From Microcaldota archaeon (GTDB taxonomy: Archaea > Micrarchaeota > Micrarchaeia > Micrarchaeales > CABMGC01): a DNA stretch of 64,000 bases. The notes beneath the pieces were generated by a model, which was given only the letters and a program-made list of their open reading frames with translations, had not been told where the DNA came from and ran no database searches. The stretch spans positions 401,030 through 465,029 of the forward strand of contig JAGWHD010000001.1 in NCBI GenBank assembly GCA_028866995.1, given 5' to 3'. Both the position numbers and the translations under genes were made by a program. Every line of letters starts with the position of its first letter. Positions within the stretch are counted from its first letter, which is position 1. This document shows, one piece after another, positions 47,650 to 54,591 of the stretch.

Positions 47650-50064
47650 ATGGAGCAGAAAGAGCTAGAGGGCATAATAATAGATGTGGATTATGCTTCC
47701 CTTCAGGAAAGGAACATTATAAGGATCACGCTGAAGCACGGGAAAGAGGTGCACACGCTTTACGATCCCTCATTCTACCCCTATTTCAGGCTCCTTCCCC
47801 ACAACGAGGACCTCGACACGGATTCCCTGCTGAAGATGGAGTTCACGAAGAACGACAAGACCGTCAAGATACGCTCTGCGACAACTGAACCAACGGTAGT
47901 GAAGGGCAAAAAGAGGACCGCGATCAGGATAGAGGCGACAAACCATGGCGACATACCTGTGATAAGCGAGAAGCTCCAGGAGTTCGGCGAGAGGTACGAG
48001 TACGACATACTGTTCTGGAAGAGATACCTGATAGACAAGAGCATAGTGCCGCTCCAGGGAGTGAAGATAAAGGCCCACGAGGACGACCAGGGACTGGTGA
48101 TAGACAGCATAGGGCAGGGCAGCGACAGCACCGCAGTGACGCAGCTGTGCTTCGACATAGAGACCTACAATCCCCTCACGCAGCCGAGGCCCAAGGAAGA
48201 CCCGGTAATCATGATAAGCTACGCGACGAACAGCAGGAGCGGAGTCCTAACGACCAAGAAGATAGACCGCGATTTCGTTACCACATTCGGCAGCGAGAAG
48301 GAGCTGATAGAGGGATTCATAGGCATCATAAAGGAGATAGATCCTGACGTCATAGCAGGATACAACTCATCGAACTTCGACATACCATACCTTATGGAGA
48401 GGGCTGCCGCGAACAGGATCAAGTTCGACATAACAAGGTACGGGGAGGAGGTCAAGAGGGAGCACCACGGCCTTCTAGAGGCAGTAAAGATACCTGGAAG
48501 GGTGAACATGGATATATACAATGTGGCCAAGTTCGTCTCTATAGTCGGAGCATCAGAGAAGCTGCTCAAGATAAACAACTTCACCCTGGGAGAGGTCTAC
48601 GCCGCTGTCACAGACACGAAGAAGATAACGGTGGACAAGAAGAATATCTGGCAGCTGTGGGACAACAACGGAAAGGACCTTGAGGAGCTTACAGACTACT
48701 CCCTCAGCGATTCCAAGACCCTCAACGAGCTCTACAACTTTTTCGCACCGCTTGAGGTCGAGGTCGCGAAGGTCAGCGGCATATCGCTTGGCGAAGCGGC
48801 GGTATCGACAACGGGGCAGCTTGTGGAGTACCTTCTGATGAGGTACGCTAACGCGAACAAGGAGCTGATACCAAACAAGCCAAGCGAGAACGAGATATTC
48901 GCTAGGACAACGAATCCCATAGAGGGGGCGTACGTAAAGACGCCAGAGGCCGGCATATACGACAAAATAGCGGTCTTCGACTTCAGGGGCCTGTACCCTT
49001 CCATAATCATAGCCTACAACATAGACCCCAACACGCTGACAAAGCTGCCCGACGGGCAATACCACGAATCGCCGACAGGGGCGAAGTTCATCGCGAGGCC
49101 CGAGGGCATAGTGCCAAAGGTGCTCAGGATACTCATATCCGAGAGGTCCAGCGTAAAGGCGGCGTACAAGAAGGATCCTGACAACAAGAACCTCAGCGCA
49201 AGGTCAAGCGCTCTCAAGATACTCGCCAACTCGTTCTACGGCTACCTGGGCTACGCAAGGTCGAGATGGTACTCTAGGGAGTGCGCCGAGAGCGTCACAG
49301 CGTTCGGGAGGAACCACATCAAGAACACAATAGAATCGGCGGAGAAGGCGGGATTCAAGGTACTCTACACCGACACCGATTCCGTGTTCCTTTTGATGGA
49401 GGGCAAAGGCAAGAACGAGGCGATAGACTTCATGAAGAAGGTCAACAAGTCCCTGCCTGATACCATGGAGCTCGAGCTCGAGGATTTCTATGTCCGCGGA
49501 GTATTCGTCGGGAAGAAGGGCGCAGGAGAGGGCGGCGCGAAGAAGAAGTACGCGCTGCTGTCAGAGTCCGGAAGGATAAAGATCCGCGGATTCGAGCTCG
49601 TGAGAAGGGACTGGTCGTACGTCTCAAGGGACACCCAGAAGAAGGTGCTCGAAGCGATCCTCAAGGAAGGGAGCAAGTCAAAGGCGGTATCCATAGTCAA
49701 GGACGTCATAGCAAGGCTCAACGAGGGGAAGGTGCCCCTCAAGGACACGGTCATATACACGCAGCTGAGGAAGAGGATAGACAGCTACGAGGTGAGGAAT
49801 TCGCCGGAGCTCGCAGCCGTAAAGAAGGCGATAGAGAAGAAGGTCAAGACGAAGGACGAGATCGAAGGGGCAACGATAGGATACATTATAACCAGGCACG
49901 GCAATACCATATCGGAGAAGGCGGAGCTCGAGGAGATTGCCACGGATTACGACCCTGCATATTACATCAACAACCAGGTAATACCAGCAACGCTCAAGAT
50001 ACTGAAGGAGCTGGGGTACAGCGAGGAGGAGCTCAAGTGGGGAGGATCGCAGAAGAGGCTTTGA
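47650..50064 (+). CDS. Family B DNA polymerase
   Basis: 804-residue replicative/repair polymerase with proofreading exonuclease. Exonuclease motifs: LCFDIETYNP (Exo I), VIAGYNSSNFDIPYL (Exo II), DYSLSDSKTL (Exo III). Polymerase motifs: AVFDFRGLYPSIIIAYN (motif A; Gly replaces the usual Ser of DFxSLYPS), KILANSFYGYLGY (motif B), VLYTDTDSVFLL (motif C). No intein. The N-terminal 130 residues form the domain that includes the uracil-sensing pocket in other archaeal PolBs. The organism thus has both PolB and PolD. map follows two bases later. Confidence 0.95.
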   Translation: MEQKELEGIIIDVDYASLQERNIIRITLKHGKEVHTLYDPSFYPYFRLLPHNEDLDTDSLLKMEFTKNDKTVKIRSATTEPTVVKGKKRTAIRIEATNHGDIPVISEKLQEFGERYEYDILFWKRYLIDKSIVPLQGVKIKAHEDDQGLVIDSIGQGSDSTAVTQLCFDIETYNPLTQPRPKEDPVIMISYATNSRSGVLTTKKIDRDFVTTFGSEKELIEGFIGIIKEIDPDVIAGYNSSNFDIPYLMERAAANRIKFDITRYGEEVKREHHGLLEAVKIPGRVNMDIYNVAKFVSIVGASEKLLKINNFTLGEVYAAVTDTKKITVDKKNIWQLWDNNGKDLEELTDYSLSDSKTLNELYNFFAPLEVEVAKVSGISLGEAAVSTTGQLVEYLLMRYANANKELIPNKPSENEIFARTTNPIEGAYVKTPEAGIYDKIAVFDFRGLYPSIIIAYNIDPNTLTKLPDGQYHESPTGAKFIARPEGIVPKVLRILISERSSVKAAYKKDPDNKNLSARSSALKILANSFYGYLGYARSRWYSRECAESVTAFGRNHIKNTIESAEKAGFKVLYTDTDSVFLLMEGKGKNEAIDFMKKVNKSLPDTMELELEDFYVRGVFVGKKGAGEGGAKKKYALLSESGRIKIRGFELVRRDWSYVSRDTQKKVLEAILKEGSKSKAVSIVKDVIARLNEGKVPLKDTVIYTQLRKRIDSYEVRNSPELAAVKKAIEKKVKTKDEIEGATIGYIITRHGNTISEKAELEEIATDYDPAYYINNQVIPATLKILKELGYSEEELKWGGSQKRL

Positions 50065-50065
50065 C

Positions 50066-50971
50066 ATGAGAAATGATTACGACTACGATAAGCTAAGGGA
50101 AGCGGGAAAGGTCTCGACAGAGGCTCTTGCCCATGCCAGGAAGCTCGTGAAGGAAGGAGCAAAGCTGCTTGACGTGGCTGAAGGCATAGAGAAGCTCATC
50201 AAGGACAAGGGATGTCTCATGTCCTTCCCGGTGAACATATCCGTCAATGAGCAGGCTGCCCATTACACTCCTTCGCATGATGACAAGACGGCGTTCGGCG
50301 CAAATGACATAGTCAAGGTCGACATAGGCGCGAGAAAGGACGACTACCTCACAGACTGCGCCATAACCATAGATCTTTCAGGGAACAACGGCAAGCTGGT
50401 CGAGGCAAGCGAGAAGGCCCTGGAAACCGCGATAAGCATGGTCCGAGACGGCGTTAAGGTCAATTCCATAGGCGCGGCAATAGGCAAGGTTGCAAAGGAG
50501 TACGGATTCAACCCGATAAAGAACCTGGGAGGACATGGGGTGGAGCGCGACGAGCTGCATGCCAACATATTCATACCTAACTACGACAACGGAGACGAAA
50601 GCGTCTTAAACGAGGGAGACGTAATAGCGATAGAGCCGTTCATGACTACTGGAGAGGGCTTGGTGGAGGACGGGGATTTCGTGGAGATATTCCAGAAGAC
50701 AAACAATGCAAACGCAAGGGCGCAGGATACGAGAAAAGTGCTCGAGCACATCAGCAGCAGGCATAAGACCTTCCCGTTCGCGCTGAGGTGGCTCGTAGAC
50801 GAGATGAAGGACATATCCGAATTCGGAATAAGGAGAGGGATAACTGAGCTGCTGAATATGGATGCGCTGGAAGCGTTCCCGGTCCTCATAGAGCGCTCGA
50901 ACGGCCTCGTCTCGCAGTCAGAGAAGGAGGTAGTGGTTACAAAGGACTCGTGCGAGGTTATAACGAAGTGA
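50066..50971 (+). CDS. map: Methionine aminopeptidase, type II
   Basis: Removes N-terminal Met from nascent proteins, 301 residues. Metal ligands fall in IVKVDIGARKDDYLTDCAITID (two Asp), NLGGHGVERDELHANIFIP (His), VIAIEPFMTTG (Glu) and KEVVVTKD (Glu). The helical insert at about 190-260 (VLEHISSRHKTFPFALRWL) marks the type II (archaeal/eukaryotic) enzyme. Encoded directly after polB and before nrdR, apparently in one transcript. Confidence 0.95.
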   Translation: MRNDYDYDKLREAGKVSTEALAHARKLVKEGAKLLDVAEGIEKLIKDKGCLMSFPVNISVNEQAAHYTPSHDDKTAFGANDIVKVDIGARKDDYLTDCAITIDLSGNNGKLVEASEKALETAISMVRDGVKVNSIGAAIGKVAKEYGFNPIKNLGGHGVERDELHANIFIPNYDNGDESVLNEGDVIAIEPFMTTGEGLVEDGDFVEIFQKTNNANARAQDTRKVLEHISSRHKTFPFALRWLVDEMKDISEFGIRRGITELLNMDALEAFPVLIERSNGLVSQSEKEVVVTKDSCEVITK

Positions 50972-50975
50972 GAGC

Positions 50976-51440
50976 ATGAAATGCCCCTATTGCGGATATT
51001 ACGATACTGAAGTCATAGACTCGAGGGAGAGCCCCGACGGCGACAGCATAAGGAGGAGAAGGGCGTGCGAGTCCTGCAAGAAGAGGTTCACGACCTACGA
51101 GAAGGCCGATTTCGCTGACATAACAGTAATAAAGAGGAACGGGGCGAGGGAGCCGTTCGACAAGAACAAGGTGCTCAACGGCATAATGAAGGCGTGCGAG
51201 AAGAGGGCCATCAGCAGGGAAACCATGGACAAGCTCACCGACAAGATAGAGATGAGGATCAGGAGCAAGGGCATAAAGGAGATAGACAGCAGGAGGATAG
51301 GTGACATGGTAGTCAAGGAGCTCTTCAAGCTCGATCCGGTGGCTTACATAAGGTTCGTCAGCATCTACCAGAACTTCGACTCCCCTGAGGAATTCAGGAA
51401 GGCAGTAACCCTATTCAAGAAGAGTTCCAAGAGTAAATAA
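50976..51440 (+). CDS. nrdR: NrdR, ribonucleotide reductase transcriptional repressor
   Basis: 154-residue regulator in the bacterial NrdR family. N-terminal zinc ribbon MKCPYCGYYDTEVIDSRES...RRRRACESCKKRFTTYEK (C3, C6, C31, C34). ATP-cone domain at about 47-137 (ITVIKRNGAREPFDKNKVLNGIMKACEKR, YIRFVSIYQNFDSPEEF) that senses ATP/dATP. When dATP is bound NrdR represses RNR genes by binding tandem NrdR boxes. NrdR is mainly bacterial; here it lies 0.7 kb from the convergent class II RNR gene nrdJ, whose promoter has two box-like palindromes. Fourth gene of the run starting at 47181. Confidence 0.94.
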   Translation: MKCPYCGYYDTEVIDSRESPDGDSIRRRRACESCKKRFTTYEKADFADITVIKRNGAREPFDKNKVLNGIMKACEKRAISRETMDKLTDKIEMRIRSKGIKEIDSRRIGDMVVKELFKLDPVAYIRFVSIYQNFDSPEEFRKAVTLFKKSSKSK

Positions 51441-51464
51441 ATTAAGGTTGATTACGTAGTAACC

Positions 51465-52109
51465 ATAGCATTATCCAACATCGAAGCCGCAATCTTCGAC
51501 ATGGACGGGACTATGGTGGACAACATGTCTTTCCATAAGGAGGCGTGGAAAGAGTTCTGCATTAGACACGGACTGTCGCTTACAGACGAAGAGTTCAGGC
51601 AAAAGATATCCGGCAAGAAGAATAACGACATATTCGAATTAGTATTCAATAAACAATTATCAAAAGACGAAGTTGGGATATTTACTGAAGAAAAGGAGGG
51701 AATCTACAGGGGGCTATACCTACCATATATAAGTGAAATAAAGGGACTTTCGAACACCATATCAATCCTGAAAGGAAAAGGAATGCGTCTTGCAGTAGCC
51801 ACAACCGCTCCAAAGAAAAATAGGGAACTCGTACTTAGCGCATTAAAGCTCGATGGCAAATTCGATTTAGTACTAGGAGATGAAAATGTCTCTAAAGGAA
51901 AACCGGACCCCGAAATCTACCTGACTGCTGCAAAAGAACTTAAAATGAACCCAAACAAATGCCTTGTCTTCGAGGACACGCCGCCTGGAGTGCAAGCAGG
52001 AAAACGGGCTGGAATGAAAGTCGTAGGAATTCTTTCAACTCATTCAAGAGAAGAATTAAACGGTGCCGACTATCTAGTGAATGACTATCTGGAAATATCA
52101 CTAGAATAA
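51465..52109 (+). CDS. HAD-superfamily phosphatase (beta-phosphoglucomutase-like), no canonical start
   Basis: About 214 residues of a subclass I HAD hydrolase: IFDMDGTMVDN (motif 1 nucleophile and general acid), VATTAPKKNR (motif 2), KGKPDPEIY (motif 3 Lys), VFEDTPPGVQAGKRAGM (motif 4). Substrate is a sugar or other phosphate monoester. The first ATG in frame (51501) lies after the nucleophile Asp codon, so the functional start must be upstream, where the frame is open from 51441 but has no ATG, GTG or TTG; ATA 51465, ATC 51480 or ATT 51441 are the options. The gene is clearly more AT-rich than neighbours, suggesting transfer. The given start is a guess. Confidence 0.7.
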   Translation: MALSNIEAAIFDMDGTMVDNMSFHKEAWKEFCIRHGLSLTDEEFRQKISGKKNNDIFELVFNKQLSKDEVGIFTEEKEGIYRGLYLPYISEIKGLSNTISILKGKGMRLAVATTAPKKNRELVLSALKLDGKFDLVLGDENVSKGKPDPEIYLTAAKELKMNPNKCLVFEDTPPGVQAGKRAGMKVVGILSTHSREELNGADYLVNDYLEISLE

Positions 52110-52110
52110 T

Positions 52111-54516
52111 CTACTCGCACTTGGTGTAGCTGCAGCTCTTGCAGGTGAAGCAGCCGTTCTCGTTCACAAGGGTCCTTTCGCTGCAGTGCGGGCAGACATC
52201 GGCCCTCAGCTCCTTGCCCTCGAACATGCCTGGCTTTACTACCGACTTCTGGACCCCGTCCATGATGCCGTCCTTCTTCTTTTCATCCGTCTTGAGCAGT
52301 TCTGCCGCCTTCCTAGGCTCCACAAGGCCAGCCATGACCTCCAGCGCCTTCGCAATCGCGTCAGGCACGCTGTAGAGCTTCATGCCCTTGTCGTAGCTTA
52401 TCGCGGAGTTTGCCTTTATGTTCTTCAGCGTGTCGACTATCTCGCGTATGTCGCCGCCCTGCTGCAGGTACTTGCTTATCAGCCTTCCCATGGCCTCGCA
52501 GTAGCTCCTCTCCTCGCTTCCAGATGAGCCGAGGGTCACGAAGACCTCTCGTATCTGCGTGTTGTCGTAGTTCGCGGTGACGTACAGCGGCCCTTCCTGC
52601 ATCCTTATCTTCATCGTCTGCCCCGTAAGGACGCTCTCGCGCTTCCACTCTGCTGATATGTGCGCTGCAGGCTGCTCCACCTTCGCATCATTCTTGCTGT
52701 TGTTCTTCTTCTGCTGCTCCTCTGTTATGAGTATGCCCTCTCTCGATCCTTCCCTGTAGACAGTTATGCCCTTGCAGCCTGCCTCCCATGCCTGGAAATA
52801 GATCTTGCCTACCTCTTCCACAGTGGTCTCCTCGGGCAGGTTTACCGTCGAGGATATCGCGCTGTCTATGTGCTTCTGTATAACCCCCTGGAGCCTTACT
52901 CTGAAATCGGCCTTTATCTTGTGCGCAGGCACGAAGAATTCGGGCAGGTCCTTCTCCTCTGCGATGTTGAACAGCTTCATGTACTCGAAGGCAAGAGGGT
53001 GGAACACCTTGAACTCGCCCTGGCTGAGCGACTCGCTCCTCCTGGTATAGCTGAACGCGAATATCGGCTCTACGCCGCTCGAAGTCCCTGCAAGAACCGA
53101 TACGCTGCCTGTCGGCGGCACTGTGAGTATCGCCACGTTCCTCAATCCGTTGTTGTATATCTTGTCCTGCATCTCCTTAGGCAGCGTCTGTATGAACGCC
53201 ATGCTCGCGTGCTTGTCCCTGTCGAACATGAGGAACGAACCCTTCTCCTTGGCTATCTCTACGCTCTCGTCGTACGACCAGAGCTTTATCCTGTTGAAGA
53301 GCTCGTCCACGAACTTCAACGCCTCTTCGCTGTCGTACTTTATGCTCAGCTTGACGAGCATGTCCGCGAGTCCCGTGATCCCGACTCCTATCCTTCTGCT
53401 GTTCCTGCCCGCCATGGTCTGCTCCTTGAGCGGGTGCTTCTCGTCGTTGTAGTCAAGGACGTTGTCAAGGAACCTTGTTGCGTACCTTGTCGCGGTCTCG
53501 AGGTTGCCCCAGTCGAGCGCAGCGCCCTTGGTGAACGGCGATGTGACGAAAGCGGAAAGGTTGAGGTTGCCGAGGTCGCATGCGCCGTAAGGCTGCAGAG
53601 GCTGCTCGCTGCACGGGTTCGTGCTTATGACCTCCATGCCGTTGTACTCGCTAGGCGAATACTTCTTTATCGTGTCCCAGAAGACAAGCCCAGGCTCGGC
53701 CCAGTCCCTTGCGGACTGCACGAGCTCGTTCCACAGGAACCTTGCGTTAATCTTCTTCTCTATCCTCCCTACTACCTTGTTCTCGAACCTGAGCGTGAAC
53801 TCCTTGTCCTCTTTCACCGCTCTCATGAACTCGTCGGTTATCCTGACGCTTATGTTCGCGTACCTGACGTTGCCCAGGTTCCTCTTTATCCTTATGAAAT
53901 CCAATATGTCCGGATGGTCTACACTCATGGTTATCATGAGTGCTCCCCTCCTGCCCTGCTGGCCTATCGTGTGGGTAGTCTCGCTGAATATGTTCATGAA
54001 CGAGGTGGAGCCTGTGGAGACGACCGCGGAGTTGTTCACTGGCGCCTTCTTGGGCCTCAGTATGCTTATGTCAGTGCCTACCCCTCCGCCGTAGCTGTAT
54101 GTCCTTGCGGCCTCCTTGCACCAGTCGAATATCGCCTCGATGGTGTCATCCTTGACAGGTATCACGTAGCAGTTCAGGAGCGTGCTCTTCCTCGATTGGC
54201 CTGCGCCGAACAGTATCCTGCCACCAGGAAGGAACCTGAAATCAGTTAGCAGCCACTTGAACCTCTCCTGCCACTGGGCCCTCTTATCTCCTTTCTCAAC
54301 GCTTGCTATCTCTTTGGAGACTCGCTCCCAGAGGTCCCTAGGCGTCCTCTCTACAGTTATCCCGTCCTTGTCCTTAAGCGCGTACTTCTCGTAGAAGACC
54401 CTTGCGCGTATCTCGTCTCCGTTGAAGAAATCAAGCGTCTCTGCAGGAAGCGCGTTGTCCGCAACCTTCACTTCAACCTTAGCCACAGCATCGTTTTTGT
54501 TCTCTGAATCAGCCAT
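52111..54516 (-). CDS. nrdJ: Adenosylcobalamin-dependent (class II) ribonucleotide reductase
   Basis: 801-residue enzyme reducing ribonucleotides for DNA synthesis with a B12-generated thiyl radical. Seen: LPGGRILFGAG and LLNCYVIPV (first active-site Cys), GGGVGTDISILRP, the NPCSEQPLQPYGACDLGNLNLS radical-site loop, and TVPPTGSVSVLAGTSSGVEPIFA. The C-terminus holds the redox/zinc Cys cluster CPHCSERTLVNENGCFTCKSC. No N-terminal ATP cone is evident. ATG 54516 is used; upstream sequence is promoter. The promoter carries a TATA box and two NrdR-box-like palindromes, and NrdR is encoded nearby. Confidence 0.95.
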   Translation of the reverse strand: MADSENKNDAVAKVEVKVADNALPAETLDFFNGDEIRARVFYEKYALKDKDGITVERTPRDLWERVSKEIASVEKGDKRAQWQERFKWLLTDFRFLPGGRILFGAGQSRKSTLLNCYVIPVKDDTIEAIFDWCKEAARTYSYGGGVGTDISILRPKKAPVNNSAVVSTGSTSFMNIFSETTHTIGQQGRRGALMITMSVDHPDILDFIRIKRNLGNVRYANISVRITDEFMRAVKEDKEFTLRFENKVVGRIEKKINARFLWNELVQSARDWAEPGLVFWDTIKKYSPSEYNGMEVISTNPCSEQPLQPYGACDLGNLNLSAFVTSPFTKGAALDWGNLETATRYATRFLDNVLDYNDEKHPLKEQTMAGRNSRRIGVGITGLADMLVKLSIKYDSEEALKFVDELFNRIKLWSYDESVEIAKEKGSFLMFDRDKHASMAFIQTLPKEMQDKIYNNGLRNVAILTVPPTGSVSVLAGTSSGVEPIFAFSYTRRSESLSQGEFKVFHPLAFEYMKLFNIAEEKDLPEFFVPAHKIKADFRVRLQGVIQKHIDSAISSTVNLPEETTVEEVGKIYFQAWEAGCKGITVYREGSREGILITEEQQKKNNSKNDAKVEQPAAHISAEWKRESVLTGQTMKIRMQEGPLYVTANYDNTQIREVFVTLGSSGSEERSYCEAMGRLISKYLQQGGDIREIVDTLKNIKANSAISYDKGMKLYSVPDAIAKALEVMAGLVEPRKAAELLKTDEKKKDGIMDGVQKSVVKPGMFEGKELRADVCPHCSERTLVNENGCFTCKSCSYTKCE

Positions 54517-54524
54517 AGAAGCAC

Positions 54525-54538
54525 CACAACCCATAGTG
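54525..54538 (-). promoter_or_regulatory. Candidate NrdR box, promoter-distal copy in leader
   Basis: On the minus strand CACTATGGGTTGTG matches 11 of 14 positions of the NrdR-box core CACwATATwTwGTG as I recall it (outer CAC/GTG arms perfect, centre degenerate). It lies in the nrdJ leader, 8 bases before the ATG, with its centre 32 bp from the second box. Confidence 0.5.
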
Positions 54539-54556
54539 TTAGGGATAAACCACAAC

Positions 54557-54570
54557 CACCAAATATAGTG
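54557..54570 (-). promoter_or_regulatory. Candidate NrdR box at the nrdJ transcription start
   Basis: On the minus strand CACTATATTTGGTG matches 13 of 14 positions of the NrdR-box core CACwATATwTwGTG. It lies about 10-30 bases downstream of the TATA box centre, so it would cover the transcription start and block RNA polymerase when bound. Confidence 0.62.
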
Positions 54571-54578
54571 GAAAAAGA

Positions 54579-54591
54579 AGATATTTAAATA
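54579..54591 (-). promoter_or_regulatory. TATA box of nrdJ
   Basis: TATTTAAATATC on the minus strand, centred near 54585. With the usual spacing of about 25 bases, transcription would start near 54560, giving a leader of about 44 bases that contains both NrdR-box-like palindromes. Confidence 0.55.

Follow-up and report, generated by a model that had tools for sequence, protein, structure and literature searches.

Published accounts treat NrdR as a bacterial regulator seldom found in archaea (PMC9110341, PMC12176259); according to a review from 2014, archaea have no NrdR boxes (PMC4009431). In Streptomyces coelicolor, an NrdR tetramer loaded with deoxyadenosine triphosphate (dATP) and ATP sits on two boxes about three helical turns apart, each of which is kinked close to 90 degrees (PMC9110341). 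Bacterial NrdR binds best when the spacer between the boxes is about 14–17 bp long, and repression of reporters in vivo was seen at 15–17 bp (PMC12051234). Here we describe a comparable arrangement in a 64,000-nucleotide stretch of the genome of an uncultured Micrarchaeota archaeon (the window; G000:C11:401030-465029, from a genome of 934,130 bases in 55 contigs that is 96% complete). The window encodes an NrdR protein and a class II ribonucleotide reductase (RNR), NrdJ, and the nrdJ promoter carries two palindromes. Judging from sequence comparisons, these paired palindromes are very probably a genuine NrdR operator, through which nrdJ would be repressed in a dATP-dependent manner at an archaeal promoter.

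The window boxes were scored over 14 core positions against the published bacterial consensus, acaCwAtATaTwGtg (PMC4009431). The core of the first box, CACTATATTTGGTG (positions 54557-54570, minus strand), agrees at 12 positions, one fewer than the first-pass annotation of this DNA had counted, while the core of the second, CACTATGGGTTGTG (54525-54538, minus strand), agrees at 11, as had been stated. C4, A6, T11 and G13 are kept in both boxes. The box centres were also said to lie exactly 32 bp apart, and measurement on the window gave the same value; the 16-bp spacer between the two 16-mers falls in the 15–17 bp range required of NrdR operators. The centre of the TATA box TTTAAATA lies 22 bp above the centre of box 1. 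In archaea, transcription typically begins some 25 bp below the centre of the TATA box, and from these two distances we infer that the nrdJ start is inside box 1.

We compared the locus across a family sample of 79 genomes, with NrdR in 57 and an RNR match in 72; most of the compared genomes are fragmented assemblies, in which a missing NrdR may be an assembly gap. Conservation in relatives that keep NrdR and an RNR, on which the first-pass annotation had staked its proposal beforehand, was complete. The pair is present in 52 of 52 readable RNR or nrdR-RNR promoters from NrdR-positive genomes, always at a spacing of 31 or 32 bp. It is missing in 14 of the 16 NrdR-negative family genomes with a readable promoter, including those members of genus g11 that could be read, among which is a single-contig assembly (Fisher p = 1e-12 for NrdR-positive versus NrdR-negative genomes, uncorrected for kinship). 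The two NrdR-negative exceptions are explained by assembly gaps: in G034 the contig ends 354 bp past nrdJ, while nrdR of the nearest relative is found some 785 bp beyond nrdJ; G053 is 58% complete. On the NrdJ tree, NrdR was lost independently five times, and the boxes are absent in all five cases. The pair also tracks the RNR gene through the gene orders nrdJ alone, nrdJ-nrdR and nrdR-nrdJ, and through different RNR types, among them a divergent type of about 1000 amino acids (aa) and class III nrdD. Where nrdR is the first gene of an operon, the box pair stays with nrdR. The boxes co-evolve with NrdR. Binding of NrdR to them is a prediction, and the palindromes might instead be the operator of another regulator that favours a similar AT-rich palindrome at RNR promoters. 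We consider this very unlikely, as box presence tracks NrdR even through the independent losses, the boxes go with nrdR when it heads an operon, and they match the consensus of bacterial NrdR boxes as well as the spacing needed by NrdR.

Phylum-wide, NrdR was found in 135 of 301 Micrarchaeota genomes, and a pair matching a strict pattern is present in 71 of these 135 compared to 7 of the other 166. Many of the strict pairs outside the family are immediately upstream of an RNR gene or of nrdR. Strict pairs in G151, G155 and G215 (L341, L342 and L344) have no gene start close downstream; they were rejected as operators and are probably chance matches.

By its sequence, the window protein is a full, canonical NrdR. 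It matched TIGR00244 with 180.3 bits (equivalog cut-off 124.65), PF22811 (Zn ribbon) with 76.3 bits and PF03477 (ATP-cone) with 87.4 bits, passing all cut-offs. Both CxxC motifs are intact (C3, C6, C31 and C34). With the DNA-contact residues as named for S. coelicolor NrdR (PMC9110341), the base-reading D15 and R17 and the backbone arginines R26-29 and R37 are all kept. The protein agrees with 55 bacterial NrdRs at 46 of the 50 positions at least 90% conserved among them, and is 91% identical to NrdR of the metagenome-assembled genome Candidatus Micrarchaeota archaeon REEA6; solved NrdR structures homologous to it were found. In an NrdR tree, a weakly supported split set the archaeal proteins apart from the bacterial ones sampled, and the NrdRs of the family formed one strongly supported clade. 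NrdR in this family thus does not look like a recent import.

Since the DNA-reading residues are kept and, among the backbone arginines, only R12 is changed, the window protein would be expected to act as S. coelicolor NrdR does. When dATP is plentiful, NrdR would load dATP plus ATP and form a tetramer that grips the nrdJ promoter at both boxes, whose centres are three helical turns apart. The predicted start would then be occluded at box 1 and the leader, up to the start codon, at box 2, while the TATA box would stay free; RNA polymerase would be kept from loading or leaving, and the TATA-binding protein (TBP) would not be displaced. When dATP drops, NrdR would be released and nrdJ transcribed. 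With box 1 over the predicted start and both boxes below the TATA in most relatives, exclusion of RNA polymerase rather than of TBP is likely. Among the 52 family promoters, 47 have their best TATA-like element upstream of box 1 and not overlapping it, with both boxes below the TATA. The first-pass annotation had placed the box over the start site, and for the window and its nearest relatives this stands: TATA and box-1 centres are 17–23 bp apart in the window's group. It does not carry over to other genera, where the distance is mostly 25–29, 36–44 or 54–57 bp. NrdR would thus be placed at the start site or below it. Such a position is known outside archaea too: in M. tuberculosis, NrdR boxes lie at +15.5 and +47.5 (PMC4428469).

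NrdR could also bind these sites and activate nrdJ, or serve mainly a wider replication or cobalamin network. P. aeruginosa NrdR has been proposed as an activator of topA (PMC4409342), and relatives of the window genome have boxes on B12 genes too. However, a site over and below the predicted start is a repressor position, and the RNR operators in the literature compared are repressor sites, which makes this possibility most unlikely. We regard it as extremely unlikely that the repeats work as RNA, in a hairpin or riboswitch of the nrdJ leader. By geometry, a transcript would indeed include box 2 and part of box 1, but the predicted start falls within box 1 in the nearest relatives, so that the RNA would not contain the whole of that box, the 31- or 32-bp spacing preserves the helical phase of DNA, and box presence depends on NrdR. 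An Rfam search of the locus detected no riboswitch, and tRNA apart there was no match at E up to 1.

A search of the window for single sites with up to three mismatches returned 2 matches against 3.2 expected; a match of this quality is expected there by chance, and one box alone is therefore not significant. The pair behaves differently. The only ACHANNNNTDGT pair at a spacing of 31 or 32 in the 934-kb genome is that of the nrdJ promoter. Across the 301 Micrarchaeota genomes, the strict pattern occurs in 58 and 25 genomes at the two spacings, compared to 5 and 1 for a reversed control. Only 0.6% of first-order Markov shuffles of 43 NrdR-positive promoters attained a score that 43 of 43 real promoters attain. 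With the spacing allowed to vary from 17 to 69 bp, 31 or 32 was the best value in 40 of these 43 promoters. The recovered family consensus, aYACwAYATRTwGTRk, is partly imposed, since the bacterial consensus was used for box selection; the preference for 31 or 32 is not. A chance or low-complexity likeness in an AT-rich promoter, already refuted by the family comparison and its NrdR-negative promoters, has next to no probability left.

Several observations weigh against the pair being an NrdR operator that represses in this way. The co-loss with NrdR rests on five events, for which the sign test gives p = 0.0625, the lowest value possible. About half of the NrdR-positive genomes phylum-wide lack a strict-pattern pair; this may reflect the strict pattern itself or the use of different sites. 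Box 2 of the window is degenerate at its centre (ATGGGT). R12, a phosphate/backbone contact of S. coelicolor NrdR, is E12 in the window protein, although column 12 is not one of the columns at which at least 90% of bacterial NrdRs agree, and R12 is not a defining residue. Finally, within the family the distance between TATA and box 1 takes values between 9 and 57 bp, so that no single steric mechanism fits all of its promoters.

The window NrdJ matched TIGR02504 with 560.6 bits (equivalog cut-off 399.95), and Pfam gave it an RNR barrel plus TSCPD, without an ATP-cone. It is the single NrdJ match in the window genome, where no NrdD was detected, leaving no further RNR of either type. Fewer than 10% of class II RNRs have ATP-cones (PMC11226230). 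As the window NrdJ has none, NrdR is probably the main dATP feedback on the deoxyribonucleoside triphosphate (dNTP) supply of this cell.

The box pair reaches beyond RNR genes in relatives, and the strict pairs located away from nrdJ there are not randomly placed. Class II RNR requires adenosylcobalamin, so co-regulation of RNR and B12 genes makes sense. In the family, the pair lies directly upstream of five of six full-length FecCD/BtuC-type permease genes, between the permease and a divergent gene, which encodes a substrate-binding protein in the scanned cases G026, G039 and G047; the BtuC-type transporter of G070 has no boxes. The G047 order (locus L349) is pduO-btuF <- boxes -> btuC-btuD -> <- nrdJ <- boxes, and its PduO is a cobalamin adenosyltransferase by Pfam. 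The best NCBIfam matches of the permeases are BtuC models but fall below their cut-offs; B12 as the substrate is thus indicated mainly by gene neighbourhood. The pair was also found at 9 of about 19 genes for a long B12-binding-domain protein (methylmalonyl-CoA-mutase-like domain, repeat-like N-terminus, low-complexity C-terminus) and at two class III nrdD genes. In the window genome only nrdJ has the pair, and the B12-binding gene (G000:C11:178262) has no boxes. Control of B12 uptake by NrdR is not described in the NrdR literature compared. In addition, three boxes in a row, at spacings of 31 and 32, lie upstream of a small thioredoxin/glutaredoxin-like gene in G290 and G291 (L345 and L346), and small genes of this kind are also near pairs in G132 and G138.

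Elsewhere in the phylum, in several Micrarchaeota families, NrdR is fused to the N-terminus of NrdD, in the domain order NrdR Zn ribbon, ATP-cone, second ATP-cone, NRDD. Pairs at a spacing of 32 or 33 lie upstream of the fusions in L316, L317, L318, L320 and L321. A literature search of open-access papers found no report of an NrdR-NrdD fusion or of NrdR in Micrarchaeota. With moderate confidence, we propose that NrdR has long served Micrarchaeota as the regulator of a combined deoxyribonucleotide and cobalamin regulon; it would repress class II and III RNR at TATA promoters and control B12 import and adenosylation, with an NrdR-NrdD fusion in some lineages that could bind its own promoter. 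As a separate observation, small ATP-cone-only proteins without a Zn ribbon (L323 613-882, L324 1439-1828, L325 1387-1854) occur in genus g62 genomes in which no full NrdR was found, and are perhaps NrdR remnants or partners.

At the window locus, nrdR and nrdJ were described as convergent and 0.7 kb apart; we measured 0.67 kb, with a HAD-hydrolase gene in the gap. The gene order polB-map-nrdR also occurs in the sister genome G011. It is likely that nrdR is co-transcribed with map, and likely that polB-map-nrdR (window 47650-51440) is one operon with the polB-like open reading frame (ORF) first. Autoregulation of nrdR in the window genome is not supported, as only 4 nt separate nrdR from map and no other box pair occurs in this genome. 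The features are listed in the table below.

Table. Features of the window and of compared loci (window positions unless a locus is named).
Feature	Position	Strand	Basis or remark
Predicted NrdR box 1, 16-mer CCACTATATTTGGTGG	54556-54571	-	consensus match; in register in relatives; over predicted start
Spacer between boxes, 16 bp	54540-54555	-	centre-to-centre 32 bp, three helical turns
Predicted NrdR box 2, 16-mer ACACTATGGGTTGTGG	54524-54539	-	leader; ends 7 nt before nrdJ ATG (54516)
Archaeal TATA box TTTAAATA	54582-54589	-	upstream of box 1; same element upstream of box 1 in most relatives
nrdR, Zn-ribbon plus ATP-cone regulator, 154 aa	50976-51440	+	profile matches, alignment to bacterial NrdRs
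nrdJ, class II (adenosylcobalamin-dependent) RNR, 801 aa	52111-54516	-	Pfam, NCBIfam
HAD-family hydrolase, between nrdR and nrdJ	51480-52109	+	profile match; no known part in switch
map, type II methionine aminopeptidase	50066-50971	+	profile match; 4-nt gap before nrdR
Large ORF read as family B DNA polymerase	47650-50064	+	sequence motifs by eye, no library scan
Pairs between divergent btuF-like and btuC-like genes	L349 565-7987 (G047), L299, L300, L302, L304		
B12-binding-protein genes with pair	L230, L231, L234, L236, L237, L214, L227, L273, L280		
NrdR-NrdD fusions	L316 1546-4176 (876 aa), L317 1531-4155 (874 aa), L318 1278-3773 (831 aa)		
NrdR-NrdD copies, incomplete or interrupted	L319-L321		

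This locus offers a clean natural case of a bacterial-type repressor at archaeal TATA promoters, and it makes control of the dNTP supply testable in very small archaea with a class II RNR that lacks an ATP-cone. The boxes at B12 genes suggest that control of dNTPs is linked to the supply of vitamin B12. A new question is raised by the NrdR-NrdD fusions, in which a DNA-binding repressor and the enzyme whose gene it probably represses are parts of one polypeptide chain.

The haloarchaeal plasmid nrdR-nrdB-nrdA operons resemble the window locus in that an archaeal NrdR is encoded beside RNR genes, but their RNR is of class I and they have been attributed to transfer from bacteria (PMC3019208). 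They were rejected as a second archaeal case, having no standard pair above the matrix threshold. Upstream of nrdR, these operons (L376-L381) have in common an element that resembles a diverged pair, CACCAnATATTGCGG ... CCACATnTGGGGTT; it lies below a TATA-like box and is possibly a variant NrdR operator. The nrdF2 and nrdH sites of M. tuberculosis (PMC4428469) are similar in having boxes below the start, 32 bp apart at nrdF2, but belong to a bacterial promoter and a class Ib RNR. The bacterial NrdR/RNR operons, such as S. coelicolor nrdRJ and E. coli nrdHIEF, nrdDG and nrdAB, are also close in their parts: these share the Zn-ribbon plus ATP-cone protein with its D15, R17 and RRRR contacts, and an RNR promoter, class II included, that carries two 16-bp palindromes separated by about three helical turns. 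In contrast to the bacterial systems, the host here is an archaeon and the promoter is of the TATA type instead of a sigma promoter, with the boxes mostly between the TATA and the start codon. The archaeal boxes are relaxed at their outer positions (Y2, R15) and have R at position 10, and the window protein carries E12 for the R12 of S. coelicolor NrdR.

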